Shown here in pieces: positions 7,526 to 51,139 of a stretch of 64,000 nt of DNA; within the stretch, counting starts at the first letter, position 1, and each line of letters starts with the position of its first letter. Both the position numbers and the translations under genes were made by a program. Below the pieces are notes generated by a model that saw only the letters and a program-made list of their open reading frames with translations, was not told where the DNA came from and searched no databases. The stretch comes from Lactobacillus sp. CBA3605. GTDB lineage: Bacteria > Bacillota > Bacilli > Lactobacillales > Lactobacillaceae. The DNA lies in contig NZ_CP027190.1 in NCBI RefSeq assembly GCF_002970915.1, positions 1,116,001 through 1,180,000 of the forward strand, read 5' to 3'.

Positions 7526-8242
7526 TTAAAAACAAAGATAATATAAGCCGCTCAATCCGATCAACGTGTAAATACCGCGCCGAACCACCGGCATTGCTAA
7601 TTTGTGAAGAATTTGTGTGGCAATTGCCGTCCCAACAATGGCCCCGGTCATCCCAATTAGCACTAACGGTAAAACTTTCACCGTTAAAATACCACTCGCT
7701 ACACGCACGCTTGTAATATAAATAATATCAATCAAAAAAAAGGTTTGGAGATTTCCAATATAAGTCGCAGTTGTTTTTGAAATTGATAAAAAGTATAGCG
7801 CCATTAACGGACCACCGATTCCAAAAAGCCCATTGAAGAAACCCGACACCATCATAAACATCCCCGCCACAAACCAAGGATAAGGACGTGTACCGGCTTG
7901 CTTGGTGACTGTAAAGTACACGGCTAGCCCGACCAATAAACCGCCTAACAGTCGCCGTAATAGCTGCACATCTAAAACTTGGCCTAAGTGAACTGACCAA
8001 GCCGCAACACTTGCGTAGACTAAAAAGGGAATAATCACTCGTTTTAACTGAACTTGGCGATGATATCGAATGACCAATGTAATCACACTAGCAGCCATAA
8101 TTAGTCCCGCTACTCCCGCACTTTGATCCATTGGCAATAACATTGGCAAAAAAATCATCATCATAATTGCTGCTCCAAATCCAGTTAACCCTTGCACCAA
8201 CCCCGCTAAGAGTCCCGGCAAAAACACTAATAACCAGGTCAT
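7526..8242 (-). CDS. TauE/SafE family sulfite/organosulfonate-type permease
   Basis: A 238-residue integral membrane protein with about eight hydrophobic helices. The family hallmark GLVQGLTGFGAAIMM lies near residues 15-29 and its inverted-repeat counterpart GFFNGLFGIGGPLMALY at about 132-148. The ATG has AGGAGCTTAAGTC upstream. Members export or import small anions such as sulfite, sulfoacetate or are of unknown use; the substrate is not shown by context. It is about 70 nt from azlD and separated from it by a terminator, so it is probably its own unit. Confidence 0.85.
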   Translation of the reverse strand: MTWLLVFLPGLLAGLVQGLTGFGAAIMMMIFLPMLLPMDQSAGVAGLIMAASVITLVIRYHRQVQLKRVIIPFLVYASVAAWSVHLGQVLDVQLLRRLLGGLLVGLAVYFTVTKQAGTRPYPWFVAGMFMMVSGFFNGLFGIGGPLMALYFLSISKTTATYIGNLQTFFLIDIIYITSVRVASGILTVKVLPLVLIGMTGAIVGTAIATQILHKLAMPVVRRGIYTLIGLSGLYYLCF

Positions 8243-11676: not shown

Positions 11677-12837
11677 TTAATTCGTGATTTTTTGCTTAGT
11701 TTTCGTCAATGGTTGATCATGCTTAACCGGGAGATGCATCACAAAACTCGTTAATTCGTCATCACTTTGCGCATAGATATAGCCACCATGGTGCGTGACA
11801 ATGCTTTGCGCAATCGCCAAGCCTAGCCCCGAACCGCCAGTCGCTTTAGACCGTGATTCCTCGACCCGATAAAATCGTTCAAATAAAAGGCCTAAAGAAT
11901 CGGCTGGAATGCGTTTACCATCATTAGTGACGTGAACCACTACTTCTGGACCGCGTTGTTCCGCTTGTAAAATAACTTTTTTAGCCCCATCACCATATTT
12001 AAACGCATTCGTAATCAAATTATTAAAGACTCGCCCTAATTTTTCCGCATCCGCTTCCAGATAAATAGGTGCTGACCCCGTTTCAACGCTAATCGTGAGC
12101 TGCTTCTTATTAGCTTCCAACTCAAAACTAGCCGCCAATTGTTCTAGCATCGCAGTTAGATTCAACCGGCTAATGTTCAGGGGCGTTTCAGTCTGTCGAA
12201 CCTTAGTGTACTCGAATAAATCTTCCACCAAGGACTTCATCTGTGTCGCCTTAGTATAGGCAATGTGCGTATATTTTATCAGATCAGCTTCCGATTGATA
12301 CTGGTGATTTTCAATCAACCCAAGATACCCAATGATTGACGTTAACGGCGTCCGGATATCATGACTCACATTGGTAATCAGCGCATCTTTCGACCGTTCG
12401 ATTTCACGTTCTTCATCCATTGAATGAATCGCAGAATCAACGAGGGCATTCACGCTTTCAACCACCCGTTGCGTATCACCAGTCAAATTAAAATTAATCC
12501 GATGATCAAAATGCCCTGCGGCAATATAATGTAACTCACTGATAATATGCCGCAATTGCATTTGCTTATAGCGCCGAATGAGCCGCCAATATAAGACAAA
12601 CCCATCCGCAATGACCATTAGCGCAATAAATAGATTTTCATAACTCCATAATTGATAATTCGTCGGTCCGATTTTAATCGAACGCTTTATCTGAAAAATA
12701 CCACTTTGTAACCCGGGATTATGCGCAATCGCACTATTAATCAACACCACAATTGACAAGTTTAAAAGGAGTAGCAAAATAACGGTCACTACTCCTTCAA
12801 AGAACAATTCACTTTTTTCACGTCCTGTTAATTTCAA
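11677..12837 (-). CDS. Sensor histidine kinase (VanS-like)
   Basis: A 386-residue kinase with two transmembrane helices (about residues 13-34 and 68-86) flanking a short extracellular loop, a linker, the H-box SHDIRTPLTSIIGYLGLI with the phospho-accepting His near 157, the N-box NNLITNAFKYGDG and the G-boxes ending GGSGLGLAIAQSI. The loop of only about 35 residues suggests sensing within or close to the membrane. It follows its response regulator after 15 bp. Sequence style matches the VanS/YkoH-like kinases of lactobacilli; the signal is unknown. Confidence 0.92.
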   Translation of the reverse strand: MKLTGREKSELFFEGVVTVILLLLLNLSIVVLINSAIAHNPGLQSGIFQIKRSIKIGPTNYQLWSYENLFIALMVIADGFVLYWRLIRRYKQMQLRHIISELHYIAAGHFDHRINFNLTGDTQRVVESVNALVDSAIHSMDEEREIERSKDALITNVSHDIRTPLTSIIGYLGLIENHQYQSEADLIKYTHIAYTKATQMKSLVEDLFEYTKVRQTETPLNISRLNLTAMLEQLAASFELEANKKQLTISVETGSAPIYLEADAEKLGRVFNNLITNAFKYGDGAKKVILQAEQRGPEVVVHVTNDGKRIPADSLGLLFERFYRVEESRSKATGGSGLGLAIAQSIVTHHGGYIYAQSDDELTSFVMHLPVKHDQPLTKTKQKITN

Positions 12838-12852
12838 AAGTTAACCTCGCTC

Positions 12853-13542
12853 TTAACGTGATTCAATCTTGTAACCAACGCCCCAGACAGTTTGAATGAC
12901 TTTTTCTCCATCTGTCGCTTCTTCAATCTTATCGCGCAAGTGACTCACATGGACCATGACCGTTTTGGCAGATACAATACTCTCTTGTTGCCAAACTCGT
13001 TCAAAAATATCATCCGCTGAAAAGACCCGGTTAGGATGACTAGCCAAGAGATATAGAATGCCAAATTCCAAGGCAGTTAATTGAATATCCTTGCCAGTCA
13101 GTGTCTTGACTTCATGTGAATCTTTATTAATCGTCAATGGCCCGATGTCTAAAATATCCGGTTCATTAGTCGTCACATTGTTTTCAGACCGCCGTAGCAA
13201 TGACTTGACCCGTGCCATAATTTCTAACGGATTGAATGGCTTTGTCACGTAATCATCGGCCCCAGTAATTAAGCCTTGAATTTTATCCATATCGCCAGTT
13301 TTAGCGGATAACACTAAGATGGGTAGCTGAGAGTCTTTACGGACTTCCTTAATGACTTCAATCCCGTCCATTTCCGGCATCATAATATCCAAAATCATCA
13401 GTGCAATATCCGGATTCGTATTTAGTTTCGTCAGGGCTTCTTTCCCGTTATAAGCACTGATTGGTTCGTAACCTTCATTTTTGATATAAATCTCTAATAG
13501 TTGCGCAATTTCTTTATCGTCATCGACTACCAAAATTTTCAT
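12853..13542 (-). CDS. OmpR-family response regulator (VanR-like)
   Basis: A 229-residue regulator with receiver domain (acidic pair DD 7-8, phospho-acceptor Asp52 in MILDIMMPEMDG, Lys near 102) and a C-terminal winged helix (about 130-226) with the loop SAKTVMVHVSHLRDKIE. It heads an operon with the histidine kinase and perhaps dacA. OmpR-family proteins bind direct repeats with about 11-bp spacing. Such repeats occur before two small-RNA genes elsewhere in the window, but nothing ties this particular regulator to them. Confidence 0.93.
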   Translation of the reverse strand: MKILVVDDDKEIAQLLEIYIKNEGYEPISAYNGKEALTKLNTNPDIALMILDIMMPEMDGIEVIKEVRKDSQLPILVLSAKTGDMDKIQGLITGADDYVTKPFNPLEIMARVKSLLRRSENNVTTNEPDILDIGPLTINKDSHEVKTLTGKDIQLTALEFGILYLLASHPNRVFSADDIFERVWQQESIVSAKTVMVHVSHLRDKIEEATDGEKVIQTVWGVGYKIESR

Positions 13543-13733
13543 ATTAATTTCTCCTCATATTAATTCTATTTATATTCTACCAAAAAGTATTAATCAACGG
13601 GGTATTCAAGGTGCTATTTAGAGAAAACGCAAAGATTGTTCGGGTTAATCATTGACGCCAGCGCCCTTATCGCAACTTAACTTATTAATCAAGTTGCCGA
13701 AAATAAGACTGTGCTTCATTAGCAATGCCCAGC

Positions 13734-13763
13734 AAAAAAGCTCAATTCATCATTGAATTGAGC
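13734..13763 (-). terminator. Terminator of guaB
   Basis: A perfect hairpin GCTCAATTCA/TGAATTGAGC with a CATCAT-like loop is followed on the minus strand by six T. It lies about 40 nt past the guaB stop. The rest of the 258-bp gap to the response regulator gene shows no gene. Confidence 0.85.
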
Positions 13764-13800
13764 CCACTTGAACCAATCAAAGACTGGCTAGTTTAGTTAA

Positions 13801-14958
<1,158 letters not shown>

Positions 14959-41607: not shown

Positions 41608-41846
41608 TTGCAGTCAATTTGGTTTGCAATTATAATAGTCGCAGATTGATAGAAAAGACTTTATCACTATCAATCATTAATATTCTTTAGTCTTTTAGAT
41701 TATAATTGGCATTGCTGCCATAATGTCGATTATTAATCATTTTCATTCATAGACTCCCCCAAGTCTTATGAATGGGGTGCATCAAAGCCCCCACTTTGAT
41801 GTTGCCTACTCCTTGACCACTACATCCCTGATGTGGTGGCTTTTTT
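41608..41846 (+). ncRNA. Small RNA S1: pseudoknot plus two CCCCCA hairpins
   Basis: TTGCAG (41608-41613) and TATAAT (41631-41636) with 17-nt spacing form a strong promoter. The expected 5' region has GATTGATAG (41644-41652) paired with CTATCAATC (41667-41675); the loop AAAAGACT (41653-41660) is complementary to AGTCTTTT (41689-41696), an H-type pseudoknot. Two hairpins follow with the same loop CCCCCA: CATTCATAGACT/AGTCTTATGAATG and CATCAAAG/CTTTGATG. After ACTCCTT comes the terminator CCACTACAT/ATGTGGTGG and six T. No open frame with a ribosome site is seen. It belongs with S2-S4 by architecture. Confidence 0.75.
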
Positions 41847-41926
41847 GTATCCAGTGATTGTTAACTTGAGTTGGTGCATGATCTATGCAATTATAAATCG
41901 TTCACCAATTCAACCTAACACTCAGG

Positions 41927-42349
41927 TTAATCCTCTTCTACTGGAGAATTCGACCGTCGATCTTGTAGCCACGTCTTAGCTTGGACCAAGACCCAGGCAA
42001 TGCCAGCGGTAAAAAGTAGTAACATCAGCGTCGATAAAATGATGACCACGATAATTTGTAGTCCTTCAGCTTTCAAAACATCTAGCTTCGTTGCCAATGC
42101 GACCCCGGAAGGAATAAAAATCAAACTGATGATTTGCACAAAAAAGTTACTAACGCCTTCAACCTGTTCTAATTTAACAATCTTAAATGTTAACAGACCG
42201 TATAGCATAATCATCCCAATCAAGGCTGGTGGCATGGGAAAGTCCGGCCAGAGTTGGGCCATTAGTTCTGAAATCAAACTACTTGCTAATAAAATTGCCC
42301 CATAAATCATGATTTGTCTAATAAACGACCATTTGTGTTTAGGTTTCAT
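41927..42349 (-). CDS. lrgA: LrgA/CidA-type membrane protein
   Basis: A 140-residue membrane protein with four hydrophobic helices. The family pattern WPDFPMPPALIGMIMLYGLL is at about 33-52 and FIPSGVALATKLD follows. LrgA/CidA proteins are holin-like regulators of murein hydrolases or partners in metabolite (pyruvate) transport; they act with LrgB. It overlaps none but lies 12 bp after lrgB in the same direction, so the order here is lrgB-lrgA, the reverse of the usual order. Confidence 0.85.
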   Translation of the reverse strand: MKPKHKWSFIRQIMIYGAILLASSLISELMAQLWPDFPMPPALIGMIMLYGLLTFKIVKLEQVEGVSNFFVQIISLIFIPSGVALATKLDVLKAEGLQIIVVIILSTLMLLLFTAGIAWVLVQAKTWLQDRRSNSPVEED

Positions 42350-42361
42350 TAAAATTCCTCC

Positions 42362-43090
42362 TTAACCGAGACCGACTAACCGGGCAAAGACTGGCACCAT
42401 AAAGTTAACTAGTATCCCAGCAATCACAAAGGCAATCGCGCCAGTTGCGCCAGCAGCCTCACTAACTTCAATCGCTTTAGTTGCACCAACCGCATTGCCA
42501 GCAATTCCAAACCCTAAGCCGGCACCTAACGGGTTCTTATGTAACTTGAACCAACGGATAAAGTGGTCACCTAAAGCATAGATCAAGACTGAGTTCAGAA
42601 TAACCGCAAATGCCGCAATGGCTTGGTCACCACCGACCGATTCAGCAACTGGTAAAGCAATTGCCGTCGTCGCCGCTTGAACTAACATGGCACCCAAAGC
42701 TTCATCTGTCAGGTTTAACGCCCGAGACACGCCATAAATTCCGAATAGTGAGAATAATAGTCCTAAAAATAACGCTAGCAAAATCACGTCCCAATGCTTC
42801 TTAAAAATATCATTACGTTTATATAGTGGGACCGCAAATGAAACGGTGGCAGGCGCTACTAGCCAAAATAACCAGTCGCCGCCAATTTGATAAGCCTGAT
42901 AAACTTTGTGCAGCGGTGCTTGCAGGGCTGACGCAATCAATACCAGTAAACCAATCCCGAGTAACATTCCAAAAAACAATGGCTGGAATAAGACAAAACG
43001 ATTCGTTTTATGATACAAATACTCGCCAATCCCATAAACTAACACGGTCAAACCGATGCCAAAGAATGGATTATTGAGAAGATAATTCAA
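42362..43090 (-). CDS. lrgB: LrgB/CidB-type membrane protein
   Basis: A 242-residue membrane protein with the LrgB family helices, including ATTAIALPVAESVGGDQAIAAF (in part) and GLGFGIAGNAVGATKAIEVSEAAGA (in part), which are highly conserved. With LrgA it forms a complex implicated in autolysis control or pyruvate uptake. The start is a TTG with a weak ribosome site (GAAAGTTGG), which may lower translation. A leader with a terminator-like hairpin lies upstream. Confidence 0.88.
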   Translation of the reverse strand: MNYLLNNPFFGIGLTVLVYGIGEYLYHKTNRFVLFQPLFFGMLLGIGLLVLIASALQAPLHKVYQAYQIGGDWLFWLVAPATVSFAVPLYKRNDIFKKHWDVILLALFLGLLFSLFGIYGVSRALNLTDEALGAMLVQAATTAIALPVAESVGGDQAIAAFAVILNSVLIYALGDHFIRWFKLHKNPLGAGLGFGIAGNAVGATKAIEVSEAAGATGAIAFVIAGILVNFMVPVFARLVGLG

Positions 43091-43125
43091 ATAAGTTCCA
43101 ACTTTCTTTTAGGGGGTGAAAGTGA

Positions 43126-43223
43126 CAAAAAAGCGCCCCACTCCGGGTCTAGTCATCATTTACATGGTGGTTAGGCTCAGAGCAGTGCGCTAACACAACT
43201 CCAAATATTATATACTTATTATA
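43126..43223 (-). promoter_or_regulatory. Candidate attenuator leader of lrgBA
   Basis: On the minus strand two overlapping TATAAT boxes (43207-43223) precede a short leader. AGCGCACTGCTC (43191-43180) can pair with GAGTGGGGCGCT (43143-43132), which runs into six T, giving a terminator-like hairpin about 35 nt before the lrgB start. The competing pair GTTAG/CTAAC uses the same 5' arm. This layout suggests conditional termination; no known riboswitch class was recognised. Confidence 0.45.
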
Positions 43224-43266
43224 GCAAACTATAGATTTAATTAATAGCATTCGGACTCCAAACGTC

Positions 43267-44106
43267 TTAATCAACCACTTGAAACATTAATGCATAGGCA
43301 CCAGTACCCGTATGTGTCGCAATAATGGGACTCGTTCGAGCAACTAATAAATCTGCTTGCGGCGCTACTTTTTGCATCAAAGCTTGTGGGGCTTGCGCCA
43401 CCGTTTCAGCGCCTACATACGAGATACCCGCGGATTCAACTCGACTAACATCCGCTAATTCCGCTAAAATCTGAGTTTGCGCTTTAATTAACGCTTTTTT
43501 TCCACGTCCCCGCGTATACAACTTTAACTTACCTTCAACTAATTCAAACACAAACTTTAATTTGATTAGATTAGTCACGACACCGGCAATTTTAGGGACT
43601 CGCCCACCCTTAACTAAGTTATCTAAGGTATCCACAAACAGATAAACATGCGTCTGTTGTCGAATGACTGCAATCTTAGCCAAAATTGCGTTTAAATCGG
43701 CACCCGCATGCGCCATCCGCGCAGCCGTTAGCACTTGAAAAGCCATCCCGCGATCAGCAGATTGCGTATCAATAACAGTCACCTGACCAGTCGCCAGCTT
43801 AGCAGCTTGGCGCGCAGCATTCACAGTCCCACTTAAGGTTTCAGTGAGATGGAGTGACAGCACTTGACTTCCATCCGCAGTTAACGCATTGTAGCACGTT
43901 ACAAAGTCCCCAATTGGCGGTTGACTAGTCGTCGGTAATTTCGGATTAGTTGTCATTTCACGGTCAAAGTCAGCTCGTGAAACCGTGGTATCAGCCACCA
44001 AATCACCATTAAAGCCCACCAGCAACGAAACAATGTTAATATCATATTGGTCAATTTCGGCCGCAGTTAATTGGACCGATGAATCAGTGACGATTTTAAT
44101 TGTCAT
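43267..44106 (-). CDS. DegV family fatty-acid-binding protein
   Basis: A 279-residue protein started at ATG 44106 (MTIKIVTDSSVQLT); the open frame upstream to 44223 is not needed and lacks DegV similarity. The DegV signature IKIVTDSS is at the N-terminus and TSQPPIGDF, HLTETLSGTVNAAR and VIDTQSADRGMAF follow. These proteins (FakB-type) bind a fatty acid and present it to the fatty acid kinase FakA. The ribosome site is weak. The gene stands alone between lrgB and S2. Confidence 0.92.
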   Translation of the reverse strand: MTIKIVTDSSVQLTAAEIDQYDINIVSLLVGFNGDLVADTTVSRADFDREMTTNPKLPTTSQPPIGDFVTCYNALTADGSQVLSLHLTETLSGTVNAARQAAKLATGQVTVIDTQSADRGMAFQVLTAARMAHAGADLNAILAKIAVIRQQTHVYLFVDTLDNLVKGGRVPKIAGVVTNLIKLKFVFELVEGKLKLYTRGRGKKALIKAQTQILAELADVSRVESAGISYVGAETVAQAPQALMQKVAPQADLLVARTSPIIATHTGTGAYALMFQVVD

Positions 44107-44311
44107 AACAAGAACCACGCTTTCAACTAAGTTGGTTGCAATTATAGCATTCACACTTTCGTCAACTTTATGAAAGCTTACTACGACTGCTTTTAACAGT
44201 ATTAGCAACATTAAATCGGTCACGATTCAGTTATAAAGTTTGTAAAATTAAACTAAATCGCCACGACAATATTGTTTTTTCAAAATGAGATCACGTTTTT
44301 AGCCTTTGACC

Positions 44312-44343
44312 GTCACACTTTCTTCAAGGAACGTGGTTATACT
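44312..44343 (+). promoter_or_regulatory. Direct-repeat promoter of small RNA S2
   Basis: GTCACA (44312-44317) and TTCAAG (44323-44328) lie one helical turn apart (11-bp period), and the second ends 9 nt before TATACT (44338-44343). A further TCAC lies 33 bp upstream of the second repeat. The spacing is the same as in the S3 promoter and typical of activation by an OmpR/PhoB-family regulator. There is no usual -35 box at the right distance. Confidence 0.6.
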
Positions 44344-44349
44344 ATGTTT

Positions 44350-44492
44350 ATGGTCATTGAGGAAGTCCCCATTCCTTAATGACAGCCCTAAATTAAATTC
44401 ATTTACCTCCCCAAGTAATGAATCTGTGTGTGTAACAACCTAACTTAATTTACTTCCCTTTTCCACCGTATTCCCCGATACGGTGGTTTTTT
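44350..44492 (+). ncRNA. Small RNA S2: hairpins with GTCCCCA and CTCCCCAA loops
   Basis: Hairpin A is a 12-bp stem, GTCATTGAGGAA/TTCCTTAATGAC with loop GTCCCCA (44353-44383). Hairpin B is ATTCATTTAC/GTAATGAAT with loop CTCCCCAA (44397-44423). A 39-nt linker leads to the terminator CCACCGTA/TACGGTGG with loop TTCCCCGA and six T (44463-44492). That terminator is identical base for base to the one of S3. No open reading frame with a ribosome site is seen. The rest of the gap 44107-44558 has nothing else. Confidence 0.75.
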
Positions 44493-44558
44493 GTGTCACT
44501 GCTGGGTTATTCCAAAAAGACATCCGCCATAATCCAGCAGATGTCTTTTAGCCTTATT

Positions 44559-46913
44559 TTAATTAACTTGCTTTAAAGCATCCTTCACGGCCTCTTTAAT
44601 CGCGCGACTTGAAGCAGAGGCTCCAGAAATCGCATCAACATCGGTGGAATTCGCCGCAACCATTGCTTTTGGTAATTGATCAAGCGCTACTAACCCAACA
44701 TCTTCGCTTTCATGGTGTTGCATAACCTCTACCTTTTCCAGCCGATTATTACGATAAGTTACGCGCACTACGACCTTACCACCAAGCCCACTATTGGAAC
44801 TACCTAGATATTGATCAGTCCCCAAATCAATCTTAGTCGTCTGCTCAATAGCCACAATATCATTAATCCCATTAACATCATTGGCATTAACGGCATCAGT
44901 ATCATCTTTAGCAGCTGCTGCATTTTCACCCGCTAGTTTTCCAAAAATAAGACATTCAGCTAGATTACCACCACCTTGATAGCAATTAGCCACAATCCCA
45001 CCAAGTTCACCGGCACCAAACAAATGTGGAATTGGTTTATTATTAATATCTAGAATTTGAGCCTTTTCATTACGTTCTGGTCCGCCTTGCGTGTTTAAAA
45101 CGTCATTAACAACCGCAATTGCATAATATGGCCCGTCATCAAAACAACGCATACTTGCCGAATCCCGTCCAAATTCATAATCTTGACCTAATCGCTTAAA
45201 CTGATTAAAGCTTGCCACTGTACTTTCAAGCTTGGCAGTTGGCACAGTTAATTTTTCAGCTAATTGCGCTAGCGAAGTTGCTGAGACTAGTTTCTGCATA
45301 AATTCTGGATAGGGTAACTGACCTTTTTGTGCTAGTTCTTGCTTAAATTCATCATATTGCGTTTGGTCAAATACTAAGTACGGATGCTGATTGTTCATCG
45401 GAATTAACCAAGAACCATGCGTCTTAATATGTCCATGACGATGCGGCGCATCCTCTGGAAAATAACGCGTCCCGTCATCAGCAATTACTAGAATACTGCC
45501 TTGCTTCAACTTAGGCCATTCTAGCTGACGACCACGTTCATTATCAGCTTCCTTAAAAGTTAATCCAGGCAGAATACCATGTGATTCATAATTCGTCATA
45601 TGCCACATCTTAGCGCCAACTGATTGCGCCATTTTGATACCATCACCACGATTGAATAAGGTCCCCAGTGGTGTTAATCGTTGACTGTGCAAATAAGTTT
45701 GAACCAGTTCTGGATTATTTTCAAACCCACCCATGGCTAAAACAACCCCATTTTTGGCATGCACATTGAATAATTGACCTTGCCGCTTAATCCGGACACC
45801 ACGAACAATTCCAGTACCAGGTTCTTGAATCAAAGTTTGCGCTCGTGAGTCTAGCCAAACATCAATCTGATCAGCTCGGTCTAATACTTTTTGTCGCAGT
45901 ACTTTCCATAAACCAGCATCTTTATCACGTTTATGGACTAGTGCAAAATCAACTGTTTGACTCCCCTTTAGTTCTGGATATTCGGCCATCGTTTTTTTAA
46001 TTGCGACAGCATCCCCAGGTTTAATATCATGTTTCCAGCTAACTGCCGGAATACCCAAGTACTGCTTAAAATACTCGGGTATTTGATGCATCCCTGATAA
46101 ATAAGCCTGTAATGTCTTTTCCGGCATGGCAAACGGTGCATTTAACGCATGATAATAATCAGTTAAATCAGTCAAGCTATCCCCCATTACGACGTGTTGC
46201 GCTGAATAACGGGTATTACCACCTTCACGACCATATGGCGCCGCCTCAACCATCAACACATGCGCGCCATTATCGGCTGCAAAACGGGCTGCAGAGGCAC
46301 CGGCACCGCCAAATCCTAATACAATCACATCATAATTTCCTTGCCACTTAACGGTTAAAGCTGGGCCGTTATTTTGGGATTTTACAAGTTTCGTAAAATT
46401 GGCAAAACAACTTTCCAAAAAATTAACCGTATGTGGATCAACCAAACTGCCTTGTTCATTAAAAGCCTTTGGCGCAAAGCTTAACATGAATTCATTACCG
46501 GGCAGCACCGTTGCCCCAACTCCCGGTGCATTCAAAATTAACCGTAATTCATCTTGTGCGCGCGAGGTTCCTTGAATCCCCAATGAAGTTCCCACAATCA
46601 TGAGTGGCTTCCCCGCAAATGGGTGAACACGGTATGATAACCATTCAATCACACTTTTCAGTGCTGCCGGTACGGCATGGTCATATTCTGGAACACCAAT
46701 GATGACACCGTCGGCTGCTTGAATTTGATTAGCTAATGTTTTTACTGACTCCGGTAATTCAACAGTTGCATTGCATTCTTTAAACAGTGGTATTTGATCA
46801 ATTTCCGCAATCTGCATCGTGACATTTTCACTAAAGTGCTGCTTCATATACTGTAATAAATCTCGATTATAAGATTTTTCAGCATTGGTCCCAACGATTG
46901 CAACTAATTTCAT
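44559..46913 (-). CDS. Fused flavin reductase / flavocytochrome c-type fumarate reductase with FMN-binding domain
   Basis: A 784-residue three-domain flavoprotein. Residues 1-180 form an NAD(P)H-dependent FMN reductase (TNAEKSYNRDLL, PEYDHAVPAALKSVIEWLS). Residues 193-665 are a FAD-binding reductase of the fumarate/urocanate reductase family (VIVLGFGGAGASAARFAADN, VEAAPYGREGGNTRYS, FGAGELGGIVANCYQGGGN). Residues 690-784 are an FMN_bind domain with AISGASASSRAI, the type that receives covalent FMN from ApbE. It probably passes electrons from NAD(P)H to an unsaturated acid such as fumarate. No signal peptide, so cytoplasmic. It is divergent from a DASS transporter gene. Confidence 0.88.
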   Translation of the reverse strand: MKLVAIVGTNAEKSYNRDLLQYMKQHFSENVTMQIAEIDQIPLFKECNATVELPESVKTLANQIQAADGVIIGVPEYDHAVPAALKSVIEWLSYRVHPFAGKPLMIVGTSLGIQGTSRAQDELRLILNAPGVGATVLPGNEFMLSFAPKAFNEQGSLVDPHTVNFLESCFANFTKLVKSQNNGPALTVKWQGNYDVIVLGFGGAGASAARFAADNGAHVLMVEAAPYGREGGNTRYSAQHVVMGDSLTDLTDYYHALNAPFAMPEKTLQAYLSGMHQIPEYFKQYLGIPAVSWKHDIKPGDAVAIKKTMAEYPELKGSQTVDFALVHKRDKDAGLWKVLRQKVLDRADQIDVWLDSRAQTLIQEPGTGIVRGVRIKRQGQLFNVHAKNGVVLAMGGFENNPELVQTYLHSQRLTPLGTLFNRGDGIKMAQSVGAKMWHMTNYESHGILPGLTFKEADNERGRQLEWPKLKQGSILVIADDGTRYFPEDAPHRHGHIKTHGSWLIPMNNQHPYLVFDQTQYDEFKQELAQKGQLPYPEFMQKLVSATSLAQLAEKLTVPTAKLESTVASFNQFKRLGQDYEFGRDSASMRCFDDGPYYAIAVVNDVLNTQGGPERNEKAQILDINNKPIPHLFGAGELGGIVANCYQGGGNLAECLIFGKLAGENAAAAKDDTDAVNANDVNGINDIVAIEQTTKIDLGTDQYLGSSNSGLGGKVVVRVTYRNNRLEKVEVMQHHESEDVGLVALDQLPKAMVAANSTDVDAISGASASSRAIKEAVKDALKQVN

Positions 46914-47297
46914 AACTAACAGTCCCTTTTATTTTTAATTGTGAAAATTTAAAAAGTATCGTGTGGTTGTTCACAAGGCCAATATACGCACTTTTAAAAA
47001 AAAGACAACGTTATAATTCAGAAAAGTCGCCTATAATCCTGTTATCATCGGCTAAACGGCGTGTTATTTTTTATATTTAACCAATAATTAGGTTAGGTCG
47101 CACTCATTTTTGCCGAAAAAATAGTTTGACTTCCATAAATAAAATTAATGATTATCACTTTAAAATCTGCTGATAGCGGGGTTATTTCATCCACTGATTG
47201 ACTTGTTAGTCATGTGCGTTCTGATTAAGTTCCCTATAGTGGTCCCTTTTAAGACGATGTTCAACATATTTGGACCATTTATTAAAAAAATAGCACA

Positions 47298-47325
47298 TTG
47301 ACAATTCAAAAATAAAAGTTATGCT
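47298..47325 (+). promoter_or_regulatory. Promoter of the DASS transporter gene
   Basis: TTGACA (47298-47303) and TATGCT (47320-47325) are separated by 16 nt, about 135 nt before the preferred start. The remainder of the 548-bp divergent region holds half-sites TTGTGAA and TTCACAA (46936-46977) that could be part of a redox or LysR operator, and no open frame. Confidence 0.55.
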
Positions 47326-47461
47326 ACGGATGAAGATTTAGGAAGTCACTAGTTTGACTAATCATGTGATGTTTTTTTCAATGGTGATGGTTGCACCGTT
47401 GATAGTAACTCCTATCGTCATCTTTTTTGCAATCCGTGAATCATATAGAGGGGTACACATT

Positions 47462-48877
47462 ATGAATAATAAAATTAATTGGAAAGCTTTTATTTTACCC
47501 TTAGTACTGGGGATTGGGCTCTGGTTACTCACACCAGTTAAGCCTGCAGCGATTAGTCCAACCGCCTGGCATCTATTCGCTATTTTCGTTGCTACTATCA
47601 TCGCTTGCGTGACTAAACCCTTGCCAATGATGGCGACCACCTTAATCGGTATCACGGCCGCCACTCTAACTGGAATTTTCACTATGGACGAAGTCACAGC
47701 TGGATTTGGCAATTCTACCGCTTGGATGGTTGCCATGTGTATGTTTATGGCAGCTGGCTTTATTAAATCCGGCTTAGGCAAAAGGATTGCTTACCTATTT
47801 GTCAAATTATTTGGTAAACACACTTTAGGATTAGCCTATGCTTTGTCTGCGGTCGATACCGTTTTAGCAATTGGTATTCCAAGCAATAATGCTCGGGTTA
47901 ACGGCATTATGTATCCAATTATTGATAACCTTTCTCATGAAATGGGTTCTGATCCCAAGCAAGGAACGCAACGTAAATTAGGCTCATTTCTAATTTTTAA
48001 TGAATATGAAATTAACAACGTTACTTCTGGGTTATTTTTAACTGGGTTAGCAGGCAACATGGTTGCCTTAGGACTGGCGAAAACCCAAGGTATCACAATT
48101 TCGTGGTTGCAATGGTTTACTGCAGCCAGCGTACCAGGGCTTATTTCACTATTGGTCATTCCTTTCATCTTATATAAAGTTTATCCACCTGAGATTAAAG
48201 CAACACCGAATGCACGTGCTTGGGCAGATAAACGACTTAACGAACTTGGCAAAATGGCCCTCAGTGAAAAAATCATGTTACTGACTTTCTTACTTGCGAT
48301 TATTTTATGGTTGGTCGGCATAAGTATCGGTATCGATGCGACGACAGTTAGCTTTATTGCCGTAGTCATCTTGTTACTTACTGGGGTCATCACAACTAAA
48401 GACCTGTTAAATGAAAGTTTTGCCTGGAATATTCTAGTTTGGCTATCCATTATTATGTTGATGTCGAAAAAACTAATGACGCTCGGCTTCTTCCCTTGGT
48501 TCTCAAGTACATTAGGTCATTCACTCCATGGCATGAATTGGATTCTAGTTCTAATTATTTTATTCTTGGCTTACTTCTATTTACATTACATGTTTCCAAG
48601 TGTTTCAACCCAGATTTCAGCCCTCTATGCTGGTTTCCTTTCAGTAGCCATTGGTGCTGGCGTCCCCACTACTTTAGCGGCCCTAATGTTAGCCTTTTGT
48701 GGTTCTATCTATTTGTCAACAACACCATACTCCGCTGGCCCGGCAGCCTTACTTTCCGGTACCGGCTATGTGACCAATAAAGAATGGTGGCAATTAAGTG
48801 CACTCATCGGACTTGTCTTCAATATCATTTGGCTGGGCGGCGGCCTACTGTGGACTAAGGTGCTTGGCCTTTGGTGA
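47462..48877 (+). CDS. DASS family anion:Na+ symporter (dicarboxylate/citrate type)
   Basis: A 471-residue membrane protein, started at ATG 47462 with GAGGGG 8 nt upstream. An upstream TTG (47354, AGGAAG ahead) would add 36 residues with one extra helix and cannot be excluded. About eleven to twelve helices and the family motif IPSNNARVNGIMYPI (SNT) mark the DASS fold; PTAWHLFAIFVATI and GCGIYLSTT-like FCGSIYLSTTPYSAGP are also typical. It imports C4-dicarboxylates, citrate or related anions. Between a fumarate-reductase-like gene and a LysR gene, it probably supplies the acceptor for that reductase. Confidence 0.9.
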   Translation: MNNKINWKAFILPLVLGIGLWLLTPVKPAAISPTAWHLFAIFVATIIACVTKPLPMMATTLIGITAATLTGIFTMDEVTAGFGNSTAWMVAMCMFMAAGFIKSGLGKRIAYLFVKLFGKHTLGLAYALSAVDTVLAIGIPSNNARVNGIMYPIIDNLSHEMGSDPKQGTQRKLGSFLIFNEYEINNVTSGLFLTGLAGNMVALGLAKTQGITISWLQWFTAASVPGLISLLVIPFILYKVYPPEIKATPNARAWADKRLNELGKMALSEKIMLLTFLLAIILWLVGISIGIDATTVSFIAVVILLLTGVITTKDLLNESFAWNILVWLSIIMLMSKKLMTLGFFPWFSSTLGHSLHGMNWILVLIILFLAYFYLHYMFPSVSTQISALYAGFLSVAIGAGVPTTLAALMLAFCGSIYLSTTPYSAGPAALLSGTGYVTNKEWWQLSALIGLVFNIIWLGGGLLWTKVLGLW

Positions 48878-48963
48878 GCCCTACCGTTATTTAAAAATCA
48901 CGTTGCCAGCTCTAATTAAATTAATTTACGTTATACTTAAATTAGTTTAAAGGGAGGATTTTT

Positions 48964-49851
48964 ATGAACGAGCGTGATTTAAAATACTTTTGTAGCTTAG
49001 TCGAAACTGGTAATTACACTGCGACTGCTAAGCAATTTCAGGTAACACAACCAGCAATTTCAGTTGCACTCAAACGACTTGAGACCAAATATGCCACTAA
49101 ACTATTAACTCAGTCTAATCACCGAGCACGCTTAGTTACCACCTCAGCTGGACAGGTTTTATATATTAAAGCTCGTCACCTAATTAAAGAATTTACTCAA
49201 ATTGAATTAGAAGTGCAACATGCTAGTGATCAAAAAGTCAGACTTGGATTTTCACACATTGCTGGTGGAATTTGGCTACCGCGCGTCATTGAAGCCTTTG
49301 CCCATCATCACTTATTGGCCTCCGTCACGACTGAAGTTGCTATTTCTGAACAGCTACTCGAACAGTTGCGTAATCATAAGTTAGATGCCGCTATTTTTTC
49401 AACACTACAGCCAATGCAATCAGATGATTTGCAAGTATTTCAATTAGAAACACACCCTCTATGTGTACTGGCTAACATTCAGCAACCAATCAGTCGCTTA
49501 CGGATGATTGAAGCAACTGATTTACAACAGTTACCCATCATTGCCCGTTTACCACATTCACTACCAAGAACAGCGTTAACTCGCTATTGTAGTCGTAGTA
49601 ATGTTCAACCTAAAATCATCTATGAGGCTCATTCTAATCAGCTCGTTGAAAGATTAGTCGCTCGCAATTTAGGCATCGGGTTCGTCATTAACGGTTCCGT
49701 TGCTTTAAGCCCTAATGTTGTTAAGATTCCGCTTAAGCCTAGTCAATCAATTGATTGTTACATGCAACTGGCGGTTCGAAAATCCTTCTTACCAAACGAT
49801 TATCAAACACGTTGTATCGACTTGTTAAAAGAAATTAAGGTTCAAGAGTAA
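48964..49851 (+). CDS. LysR family regulator of the reductase/transporter module
   Basis: A 295-residue LTTR: HTH at residues 2-60 (FCSLVETGNYTATAKQFQVT in part, QPAISVALKRLE) and an effector domain from about 88 (KVRLGFSHIAGGIWLPRVIE). The ribosome site AGGGAGG lies 7 nt before ATG. It follows the DASS gene in the same direction, 86 bp downstream, and may sense the imported carboxylate and act on the divergent promoters at 46.9-47.3 kb. Confidence 0.88.
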   Translation: MNERDLKYFCSLVETGNYTATAKQFQVTQPAISVALKRLETKYATKLLTQSNHRARLVTTSAGQVLYIKARHLIKEFTQIELEVQHASDQKVRLGFSHIAGGIWLPRVIEAFAHHHLLASVTTEVAISEQLLEQLRNHKLDAAIFSTLQPMQSDDLQVFQLETHPLCVLANIQQPISRLRMIEATDLQQLPIIARLPHSLPRTALTRYCSRSNVQPKIIYEAHSNQLVERLVARNLGIGFVINGSVALSPNVVKIPLKPSQSIDCYMQLAVRKSFLPNDYQTRCIDLLKEIKVQE

Positions 49852-49864
49852 TTGACGCCCTTTG

Positions 49865-49893
49865 CCACCGCATTCCCCGCTACGGTGGTTTTT
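49865..49893 (+). terminator. Terminator of the LysR gene, like those of S2 and S3
   Basis: CCACCG pairs with CGGTGG around CATTCCCCGCTA and is followed by five T. Stem and loop differ from the S2/S3 terminator at only two bases, so the element has been copied here without the upstream hairpins. Confidence 0.85.
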
Positions 49894-49984
49894 GTGCACT
49901 GGTTATGGTGATTCGTTTAGAGATCAGTCCCCTAGGCAAAGTTAGTCACATCTGCTAAACTAACTCTTAATATTTAACTCACAC

Positions 49985-50683
49985 GTGTTTTATTCACTAT
50001 TTGATCCAACCTATTTTTTGGTCATCATCGGTTTAATCATCTCGATGGCCGCATCAAGCTATGTCAACCGGACCTTCAAACACTACGATACCTATCGGAG
50101 TCAATCTAATACGACAGGAACCGCCGCGGCGCAGTTTATTTTGACCCAAACAGGAATTAACGACGTGGGCGTCCAGGCCATCAGTGGTGACTTAACCGAT
50201 AACTATAATGGACAGACTAAGGTACTTAGTCTATCAGCCTCAACGGCACAATCTACGTCAGTCGCAGCCATCGGTGTCGCCGCACACGAATGCGGGCACG
50301 CTGTACAAGATCACGTGAACTATTGGCCCATGCGGCTCCGAACGGCCCTCGTTCCAGCAGCTAATCTCGGGTCAACGTTATCTTTACCCATTATTATTGT
50401 GGGGGTCTTACTCAGTTACAATCAGACCTTAATTCATGTTGGCATTTTATTGTTCTCACTAGCACTACTATTTCAACTGGTGACTTTACCGGTTGAATTC
50501 AATGCTTCCAGACGGGCATTAACGATTCTAGCAAGTGGCGGAGTACTCACACCGGCAGAAGTTCCGATGGTCCGTAAAGTGCTCATTGCCGCCGCATTAA
50601 CTTATGTGGCAGCGGCGCTCTCCACTTTCCTACAATTACTCCGACTAATCATCCTATTCGGCGGTAACCGCGACAATGATTAA
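49985..50683 (+). CDS. YugP-like neutral zinc metallopeptidase
   Basis: A 232-residue membrane protease (PF04298). The zinc motif HECGHAVQD lies at about 98-106 and the family segment QSNTTGTAAAQFILTQTG (in part) precedes it; the third ligand region lies in PVEFNASRRAL. About four transmembrane helices surround the site. The start is GTG with a poor ribosome site, so translation may be low or the start slightly wrong. Its substrates are unknown. The two sRNA genes S3 and S4 follow it. Confidence 0.9.
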   Translation: MFYSLFDPTYFLVIIGLIISMAASSYVNRTFKHYDTYRSQSNTTGTAAAQFILTQTGINDVGVQAISGDLTDNYNGQTKVLSLSASTAQSTSVAAIGVAAHECGHAVQDHVNYWPMRLRTALVPAANLGSTLSLPIIIVGVLLSYNQTLIHVGILLFSLALLFQLVTLPVEFNASRRALTILASGGVLTPAEVPMVRKVLIAAALTYVAAALSTFLQLLRLIILFGGNRDND

Positions 50684-50742
50684 GGGCTTAATAAGGGCTT
50701 AATAAAGGCTTAGTGAATTCTTCACCACATCGGCCGGATTCA

Positions 50743-50774
50743 TTCACATATTCTTCACACCGGCTCGGTATGAT
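50743..50774 (+). promoter_or_regulatory. Direct-repeat promoter of small RNA S3
   Basis: TTCACA (50743-50748) and TTCACA (50754-50759) are perfect direct repeats with an 11-bp period. The second ends 9 nt before TATGAT (50769-50774). A third near-copy, TTCACC, lies at 50721, exactly 22 bp before the first. The site is like a PhoP/CiaR-type box. The same layout occurs before S2. Confidence 0.65.
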
Positions 50775-50780
50775 AGCATC

Positions 50781-50937
50781 ATAGCAATTGAGGGACAACT
50801 TCAATTGGCTATAACACAACCTAAAATTTTTCATTTACTCCTCCAAAGTAATGAAATTCATAGTAACATGCGACTCCCCATCGCATGTTTACCCTACTCC
50901 TTTTTCCACCGTATTCCCCGATACGGTGGTTTTTTTT
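50781..50937 (+). ncRNA. Small RNA S3: CCTCCAA and CTCCCCA loop hairpins
   Basis: Hairpin A is ATAGCAATTGA/TCAATTGGCTAT (50781-50812). Hairpin B is TTTCATTTACT/AGTAATGAAA with loop CCTCCAA (50829-50856). Hairpin C is AACATGCGA/TCGCATGTT with loop CTCCCCA (50865-50889). After ACTCC and five T comes the terminator CCACCGTA/TACGGTGG with loop TTCCCCGA and eight T (50906-50937). Hairpin B recurs almost unchanged in S4 and the terminator is identical in S2. The loops are complementary to Shine-Dalgarno sequences. Confidence 0.78.
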
Positions 50938-51004
50938 GACGCTACATCATCCCCCTTTGAGCAAGCTATTTACTTTTTATGCCATAAATCGTTATACTAG
51001 TAGC

Positions 51005-51139
51005 ATAGTAGTTGAATTTGTCACTCAACTGCTATACCTTTTCATTTACTCCTCCAAAGTTAATGAAAACAGTCTTGTTAGGTCCTCCAACCTAACAAAA
51101 TGAACACTCCTTTTGCCGTCGCGTAAAGCGATGGTTTTT
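51005..51139 (+). ncRNA. Small RNA S4: two CCTCC-loop hairpins
   Basis: The promoter is TTTACT (50969-50974), 18 nt, TATACT (50993-50998); no 11-bp repeats are seen. Hairpin A is ATAGTAGTTGA/TCAACTGCTAT (51005-51035). Hairpin B is TTTTCATTTACT/AGTTAATGAAAA with loop CCTCCAA (51039-51069), nearly the same as in S3. Hairpin C is TTGTTAGG/CCTAACAA with loop TCCTCCAA (51075-51098). ACTCCTTTT then leads to the terminator CCGTCGC/GCGATGG with five T. It is tandem to S3. Confidence 0.78.

Follow-up and report, generated by a model that had tools for sequence, protein, structure and literature searches.

What are four short, hairpin-rich units doing between the genes of a lactobacillus chromosome, all on one strand and all carrying loops that fit the Shine-Dalgarno (SD) sequence? 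The units, here S1 to S4, lie in a 64-kb window (the whole stretch analysed, positions 1,116,001 to 1,180,000 of contig NZ_CP027190.1 of Lactobacillus sp. CBA3605). To our knowledge, few trans-acting small RNAs (sRNAs) of lactobacilli are known, and a search of the open-access literature, most subscription papers being outside its scope, found no such sRNA family in lactobacilli among the matches listed. We consider it likely that S1 to S4 and two further members of the same genome, S5 and S6, are paralogous trans-acting sRNAs, mostly under one OmpR-type promoter box, that block the start regions of messenger RNAs (mRNAs) for envelope proteins.

The proposed mechanism runs as follows. The promoters of S2, S3, S5 and S6 would be read by one regulator, most likely a PieR-like one, under a signal that is perhaps cell-envelope or secretion stress; because one OmpR-type box is common to their promoters, these four RNAs are probably made together. 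C-rich stretches in hairpin loops, in the single strand before the terminator and sometimes in the terminator loop would pair with SD sequences, while the letters UUCAU in the 5' arm of the most conserved hairpin would cover the start codon. Such pairing would keep ribosomes off mRNAs that encode exported proteins, lipoproteins and membrane proteins, and the load on the envelope would fall. We infer transcription, the identity and signal of the regulator and the repression of targets from what was computed: the units and their structures, their conservation, the shared box, the co-occurrence of box and regulator gene, and the over-representation of exported proteins at the complements of one loop.

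Four units and their paralogues

The four units are intergenic and lie on the plus strand. The predicted S1 sRNA (41644..41846) follows a promoter at 41608..41636 (TTGCAG, 17 nucleotides (nt), TATAAT) that is kept in the S1 alignment, and comprises two 5' hairpins (41644-41675 and 41698-41738), hairpins B (41742-41774) and C (41779-41802), both with the loop CCCCCA, and a terminator (41817-41839). S2 (predicted sRNA 44350..44492), behind a promoter at 44312..44343 with the response-regulator-type box TCACACTTTCTTCA and a -10 element TATACT, has its anti-SD loops in hairpins A (44353-44383, GTCCCCA) and B (44398-44422, CTCCCCAA) and lacks hairpin C; the stretch TTTACTTCCCTTTT (44449-44462) stands directly 5' of its terminator (44463-44486). 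S3 (predicted sRNA 50780..50937) has a promoter at 50743..50774 with a perfect TTCACA-N5-TTCACA box and the -10 element TATGAT. Its parts are hairpin A (50780-50812), the invariant hairpin B (50829-50856, loop CCTCCAA, UUCAU in the 5' arm), hairpin C (50865-50889, loop CTCCCCA), the stretch CTACTCCTTTT (50894-50904) and a terminator (50906-50929, loop TTCCCC). S4 succeeds it directly (promoter 50969..50998, TTTACT-18 nt-TATACT; predicted sRNA 51005..51139), with hairpins A (51007-51033), B (51039-51069, loop CCTCCAA) and C (51075-51098, loop TCCTCCAA), the stretch ACACTCCTTTT (51104-51114) and a terminator (51115-51135).

The initial annotation had described these units, and its observations are confirmed from the sequence and the folds: the four intergenic places, the loops given above, the identity of the S2 and S3 terminators over 24 nt (44463-44486 and 50906-50929), the letters ACTCCTT just before the terminator in S1, S3 and S4 (S2 has ACTTCCC instead), and a hairpin B nearly identical in S3 and S4, which on closer inspection differs by one inserted T. 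It had also assigned a promoter to each unit. Conservation upstream bears this out, which a consensus scan of the region does not (28 sites against 25.1 in shuffles); because the scan count is no higher than that of shuffles, the promoter calls rest on conservation.

Folding of the units is far from what their composition would give. Against dinucleotide shuffles the z-scores are -6.2 (S1), -4.1 (S2), -7.8 (S3) and -7.1 (S4), none of 200 shuffles of any unit folds as well as the native letters, and the anti-SD letters are unpaired in all four predicted folds. Terminators preceded within 110 nt by one or more anti-SD hairpins occur four times in the window, always on the plus strand and between 41.7 and 51.2 kb, and three of these units carry two or more such hairpins. 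Under the same definition, a 796-kb sample drawn from this species and one other gave four matches, two of them S5 and none with two hairpins.

The S3-S4 region was matched in 21/21 genomes of Lactiplantibacillus, the genus to which the window belongs, and the fetched stretches gave 21 aligned rows for S3, 19 for S1, 19 for S4 and 20 for S5, which lies at another place. The 21 rows of S3 do not vary in hairpin B or in the stretch ahead of the terminator, and S3 hairpin C shows two-sided changes in 6 of 9 pairs with its CCCC loop kept. S5 has two covarying helices, with two-sided changes in 8 of 11 and 7 of 12 pairs, and keeps TCCCC; its alignment holds 19 of the 20 rows, L061 having been dropped for a damaged terminator stem. 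S4 has such changes in two hairpins, A (4 of 8 pairs) and C (2 of 8). The covariation scores of the S3, S5 and S4 alignments were each reached by 0/500 shuffles, and slid controls scored far lower. Compensatory changes that keep the C-rich loops, by which the initial annotation had proposed to judge its reading, are present in S3 and S5; in S4 hairpin C the stem also changes on both sides, and it is the loop letters that drift and in some species are lost. Among S4 orthologues, L041, L043, L045 and L039 (one of them titled L. plantarum) have lost the anti-SD letters from hairpin C and from the single strand. S5 (L051-L070) carries in addition a long hairpin whose upper part, GGCATGTGAACGTCCCCCCGCTTATATGAATAAACG, is almost fully conserved and whose lower stem covaries.

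These alignments were made class by class; a mixed one (S3, S4, S6 and Paucilactobacillus, 22 rows) gave an RNAalifold consensus without any pairs. S2-type units vary in copy number among species, and 18 of 27 S2-type rows were aligned, the other nine (L046 among them) having no start by the pattern or an incomparable length; in this alignment RNAalifold retained no more than the terminator and part of hairpin A, hairpin B being absent. Spread by duplication, as had been proposed, is visible in two species, each with four S2-type units in its cluster (L036, L038).

On sequence evidence, S1 to S4 most likely form one paralogous family with S5 and S6. When only S3 rows are used to build a covariance model, it recovers S1 (E 7e-8), S2 (E 1e-14) and S4 (E 2e-11) in the window, in line with a check suggested by the initial annotation, and finds members elsewhere: S5, the S6 of a sister species, units of Paucilactobacillus, and units of a genus labelled here g12 (E down to 5e-9). 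Nine control loci gave no match. Across Lactiplantibacillus the model matches all 21 genomes, 4-12 times each (S5 may count twice), and all six classes are present in the genome titled L. plantarum EGD-AQ4. S6 was found solely through its promoter box; it lies near an Rce1-like protease gene and has the loops CTCCCCCAA and TCCCCCA. By matched letters, S6 occurs in 19 genomes with the strict box pattern and in the other two with a looser pattern (L103 and L109 were read).

A shared promoter box and its distribution

A response-regulator-type site is common to the promoters of four of the six units: TTCACA-N5-TTCACA, or a near variant, is seen in the upstream alignments of S2, S3 and S5 and stands before S6 as well, with its end some 9 nt from the -10 element. 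The best match reaches 10-12 of 12 letters in S3, 9-11 in S5 and 12 in S6, and the geometry is that of an OmpR-type response regulator site. A search for TCACANWTTCTTCA-N9-12-TANNNT in the 21 genomes gave 62 matches, and none for the reversed control; 61 fall at S2-, S3-, S5- or S6-type sRNAs and one does not. This assignment rests on 30 loci that were read, 29 of which lead an anti-SD sRNA, with the other 32 matches placed by position and matched letters.

With the looser pattern, nine genomes by matched letters also show a reversed site some 100 bp upstream of prsA, a foldase gene; four of the sites were read (L123, L126, L128, L130), and that of this genome (G000:C1:2391413) is known by matched letters only. 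It is a hint that the same regulator might touch protein folding outside the membrane. Within the window, a further near match at 7603-7619 (minus strand) lies inside a gene.

The system had been presented as one of this lactobacillus, a restriction that does not hold. The box occurs in 129/397 Lactobacillaceae genomes and 17/40 genera (three matches for the reversed control). We measured 30 box loci outside Lactiplantibacillus, 19 from a genus g4, 10 from g12 and one from g28. Within 170 nt, every one of the 30 shows an unpaired anti-SD motif and 28 show two or more (mean 2.9), against 10% with a motif and a mean of 0.13 in control windows of the same loci (n=230), and 53% and 1.08 in composition-keeping shuffles (n=600). 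Hairpin B is recognisable in g12; g4 has an RNA of another build under the same box. In many of the g4 box RNAs (L182-L200), TCCTCCCT or CCTCCCT is followed by GATA or AATA, and hairpin B is absent. On box loci L182, L184 and L211 the S3 model had no match at E 1 or better, and L181, L187, L201 and L217 matched weakly (E 0.07-0.5). Among 12 further box loci, 11 have CU-rich motifs by our own reading, made without a control. Other Lactobacillales families have the box in 5/247 genomes (control two), and all five lead C-rich hairpins, again by our own reading. Records of Lactiplantibacillus contain a 19-nt piece of hairpin B, as do six contigs of four Paucilactobacillus species and one of Lactobacillus selangorensis; it also occurs at four unrelated, chance-like places. 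The promoter box offers a way to find new anti-SD sRNAs without a search for the RNA itself.

Candidate regulator, predicted targets and competing explanations

This genome encodes seven OmpR-type regulators, one of which is closest to PieR (NCBIfam NF041209; 293 bits, next model 215). In 151 family genomes, the PieR-like gene and the box were both present in 35, the gene only in 66, the box only in one and neither in 49 (p 1.4e-6). The box is thus seen in 1/50 genomes without a PieR-like gene, and that genome is 65% complete. For PhoP the corresponding counts were 29, 56, 7 and 59 (p 9e-4). The E-value limit was 1e-60 for the PieR-like gene, whose weakest accepted match was 2e-86, and 1e-70 for the PhoP and LisR-like genes, unmatched genomes being scored as lacking; the statistics are to be read with the caution that genomes are not independent and thresholds differ between regulators. 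The PieR-like protein is the best candidate of the three tested, and the most likely one, for reading the box. A VanR-like response regulator and kinase are also encoded in the window (about 12310-14187, minus strand), far from the sRNAs.

What the RNAs could pair with is suggested first by hairpin B: UUCAUUUACUCCUCCAAAG, its 5' arm and loop, is the complement of a whole start region, CTTTGGAGGAGTAAATGAA. The letters UUCAU before CUCC are present in hairpin B of S1 to S5 (S6 has CAUUUUACUCCCCC) and sit in the stem, not in an unpaired stretch. They recur in 13/38 box loci of other genera and families against 22/1900 single-letter shuffles, a count made on 38 of 42 loci (L215, L218, L219 and L221 left out) in which nine of the 13 bearers belong to g12 or g28. 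Start-codon pairing by the 5' arm would explain the invariance of that arm.

A second indication comes from an 11-nt complement of the invariant loop, CTTTGGAGGAG, fixed before its matches were seen and representing one loop only. It occurs 87 times in 21 genomes, 25 times outside sRNAs by our own sorting. Nineteen of these 25 sites lie 1-10 nt before an open reading frame (ORF) of at least 50 codons, and a hydropathy rule classes the products of 18 of the 19 ORFs as exported, lipoprotein or membrane proteins, eight of them with a lipobox. Exported or membrane proteins follow 5/13 other NNNNGGAGGAG sites in two genomes (p 9e-4) and 67/229 GGAGG sites in two genomes (p 2e-8; 67/228 without the 11-mer), and make up 133/420 of all genes sampled in this genome. 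One small lipoprotein is preceded by CTTTGGAGGAG in five species; other ORFs encode a Pfam Lipoprotein_Ltp protein and YbbR, and 7/10 scanned proteins have no Pfam family.

Several results pull the other way. Hairpin B never varies in S3, S4 and S5, and because it is invariant it gives no covariation evidence. The covariation shuffles do not preserve relatedness among rows, and some measures are within their reach: the two-sided-pair count of S4 is reached by 72/500 and its pair-type count by 343/500, and the number of pair types in S5 by 61/500. The loop of S4 hairpin C drifts, with CUCC gone in the L. plantarum group, and S4 of L. plantarum-type species has anti-SD letters solely in hairpin B. 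S1 and S4 are without the TTCACA box, two box matches (L091 and L221) are without a C-rich RNA, and the loci of the seven OmpR-type regulator genes have no box above 10/12 letters. The 19 ORFs make about 13 gene families by eye, of which 12 are exported (p 9e-5 against the NNNNGGAGGAG control); the export call is a crude hydropathy rule, and the signal is confined to one exact 11-mer. Over 420 genes, complementarity to hairpin B is not clearly longer for exported proteins (p 0.06), nor do exported and other proteins differ in it among GGAGG genes. As to the regulator, the curated PieR cut-off of 450 bits is not reached, hence the name PieR-like. The co-occurrence analysis covers three of the seven regulators, the PieR-like, the LisR-like and PhoP; the other four are the WalR-type L133, L135 and L136 and the VanR-like L137. 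A LisR-like gene is present in all 36 box genomes, and in 99 without the box (p 0.013).

That LisR-like or another OmpR-type regulator reads the box in place of the PieR-like one is somewhat unlikely, and of the other readings it survives best. TTCACA fits the half-site of Bacillus PhoP, whose gene occurs in 29/36 box genomes. We set PhoP aside as regulator since a PhoP match at E 1e-70 is missing from seven box genomes and the box is found in 0/18 genomes with PhoP and without a PieR-like gene. Some PhoP genes may be cut off by the threshold, because the weakest accepted match is 1.5e-71, so this evidence counts against PhoP without excluding it. The LisR-like gene has its presence in 36/36 box genomes in its favour, and in Listeria LisR drives LhrC (PMC4132741). 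Among 39 genomes with a LisR-like and without a PieR-like gene, however, just one, the genome that is 65% complete, has the box.

A second alternative concerns what the RNAs do: they might be general ribosome-site decoys that mimic the 3' end of 16S ribosomal RNA and damp any mRNA with a strong SD sequence, with no target class. The C-rich stretches do resemble the 16S tail, copies and sites are several, and the equal hairpin B complementarity of exported and other proteins among GGAGG genes suits this view. Yet hairpin B is invariant past its CCTCC core, CAAAG and the 5' arm included, and in 18/19 cases the ORF downstream of the extended 11-mer complement encodes an exported or membrane protein; we regard decoys as improbable.

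Still less probable is that the C-rich loops bind a protein or the RNA degradation machinery, mRNA pairing being secondary. Repeated, alike hairpin loops are the layout of titrating RNAs, and RsmY and RsmZ, which titrate a protein, resemble the system proposed here in that a two-component system, with GacA, acts through RNAs with such loops. Unlike theirs, the loops described here fit SD sequences; they are the reverse of CsrA/RsmA sites, which are GGA-rich, and the enrichment of target complements also argues against titration. In favour of titration, GacAS is stated to act exclusively through RsmY and RsmZ (PMC4132741).

The preferred reading, trans-acting sRNAs aimed at envelope-protein mRNAs, also agrees with the genomic setting. 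S1 lies between a GNAT-like gene (own reading) and an LrgA-type gene of the opposite strand, which it faces, and S2, on the plus strand, is flanked by DegV and a flavoprotein-like gene (own reading), both on the minus strand; given these orientations, neither can be the leader of a downstream gene. S3 and S4 stand in tandem with a zinc peptidase on one side and a hydrolase on the other. It is scarcely credible that the units act in cis on adjacent genes, as leaders, attenuators or simple terminators. In favour of this, S4 lies about 70 nt upstream of a same-strand gene, and S2-type terminator letters occur after a LysR-type gene as well (49864-49889). Against it stand the orientation of S1 and S2, the one box kept at four different places (S2, S3, S5, S6) and the terminator at the end of each unit. 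The lone S2/S3-like terminator hairpin at 49864-49889 has no sRNA in front; the S3 model matches there (49788-49892, E 5e-4), perhaps marking a duplication remnant or source.

Relation to known small RNAs

No Rfam family reaches its threshold anywhere in the window. At S3, matches up to E 10 were rli32 (E 0.18), Ref84 (E 2), LhrC (E 3.4) and MicF (E 4.5). The csRNAs of Streptococcus are paralogous, depend on CiaR through a 6-N5-6 direct repeat and are complementary to SD and AUG (PMC3091779). The family described here resembles them as several small paralogous RNAs under one 6-N5-6 repeat of an OmpR-type regulator, with anti-SD letters; its letters complementary to AUG lie in a stem. It differs in its half-site, TTCACA against TTTAAG, and in having the anti-SD letters mostly in hairpin loops, whereas those of csRNAs stand between two stems. 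The CiaR repeat TTTAAG-N5-TTTAAG (NTTAAG-N5-WTTAAG), with at most two mismatches, occurs 15 times in the window against 13.8 expected by chance, and relatives of CiaH were not found in Lactobacillus according to PMC3091779. The one CiaR-like match near a unit, at 50687-50703 (minus strand) upstream of S3, is only partly kept in other species; at 50686-50705 the window has a direct repeat CTTAAT with 11 nt spacing, which fits the CiaR consensus on the minus strand.

In Listeria, LhrC1-5 depend on LisR and carry CU-rich sites in a loop, a single strand and the terminator loop (PMC4132741); the 5' side of stem A also opens for pairing (PMC4132741), and surface proteins are repressed (PMC5880928, PMC4132741). 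Shared with our family are the multiple copies and redundant CU-rich sites in each RNA and, on the reading proposed here, an envelope-stress regulator and surface proteins as target class (PMC4132741, PMC5880928). At S3, LhrC (RF00616) scores 24.6 of 110 bits (E 3.4), and its invariant hairpin is another one; LisR and TTCACA boxes cannot be compared because, as PMC4132741 states, no LisR consensus was known. By analogy, the family appears csRNA/LhrC-like in design, with its own box and RNAs, and we claim membership in none of csRNA, LhrC or Ref84. The likeness to csRNA and LhrC proposed in the initial annotation therefore stands as one of design and not of family, given scores below Rfam thresholds and no excess of the CiaR repeat, and its interpretation of a comparable post-transcriptional system is supported at the level of sequence. 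If the preferred reading is true, many food and probiotic genera would control surface proteins via six or more RNAs and one regulator.

Ref84 of Enterococcus (RF02846) may be a distant relative. S3 scores 29.1 of 52 bits, below the gathering threshold, as do two box loci outside Lactobacillaceae, L212 (43.4 bits, E 0.008) and L213 (39.9 bits, E 0.03). Conversely, the S3 model matches all 17 Ref84 loci searched (of 30), with E 2.6e-6 to 0.02, part of the likeness being the terminator; a CTCCTCC hairpin, with ACTCC ahead of the terminator, is seen in some Ref84 loci. The promoters differ: 30/30 Ref84 loci are without the box, their best match within 120 nt upstream being 7-9 of 12 letters. It is possible, and we put it forward tentatively, that the PieR-like system works mainly via RNA and that the sRNAs share ancestry with Ref84 and form an envelope-stress brake on the exported proteome; the first part is suggested because nearly all of the strongest conserved sites belong to promoters of anti-start-site sRNAs. 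This opens the question whether csRNA, LhrC, Ref84 and the lactobacillar family arose repeatedly in the order or are ancient solutions. Within Ref84 itself, loci L228-L239, all of one genus, no longer have the CCTCC loop (TTTACTCTTATTGAGTAA) and retain ACTCC before the terminator, and L250 and L254 keep CTCCTCC.

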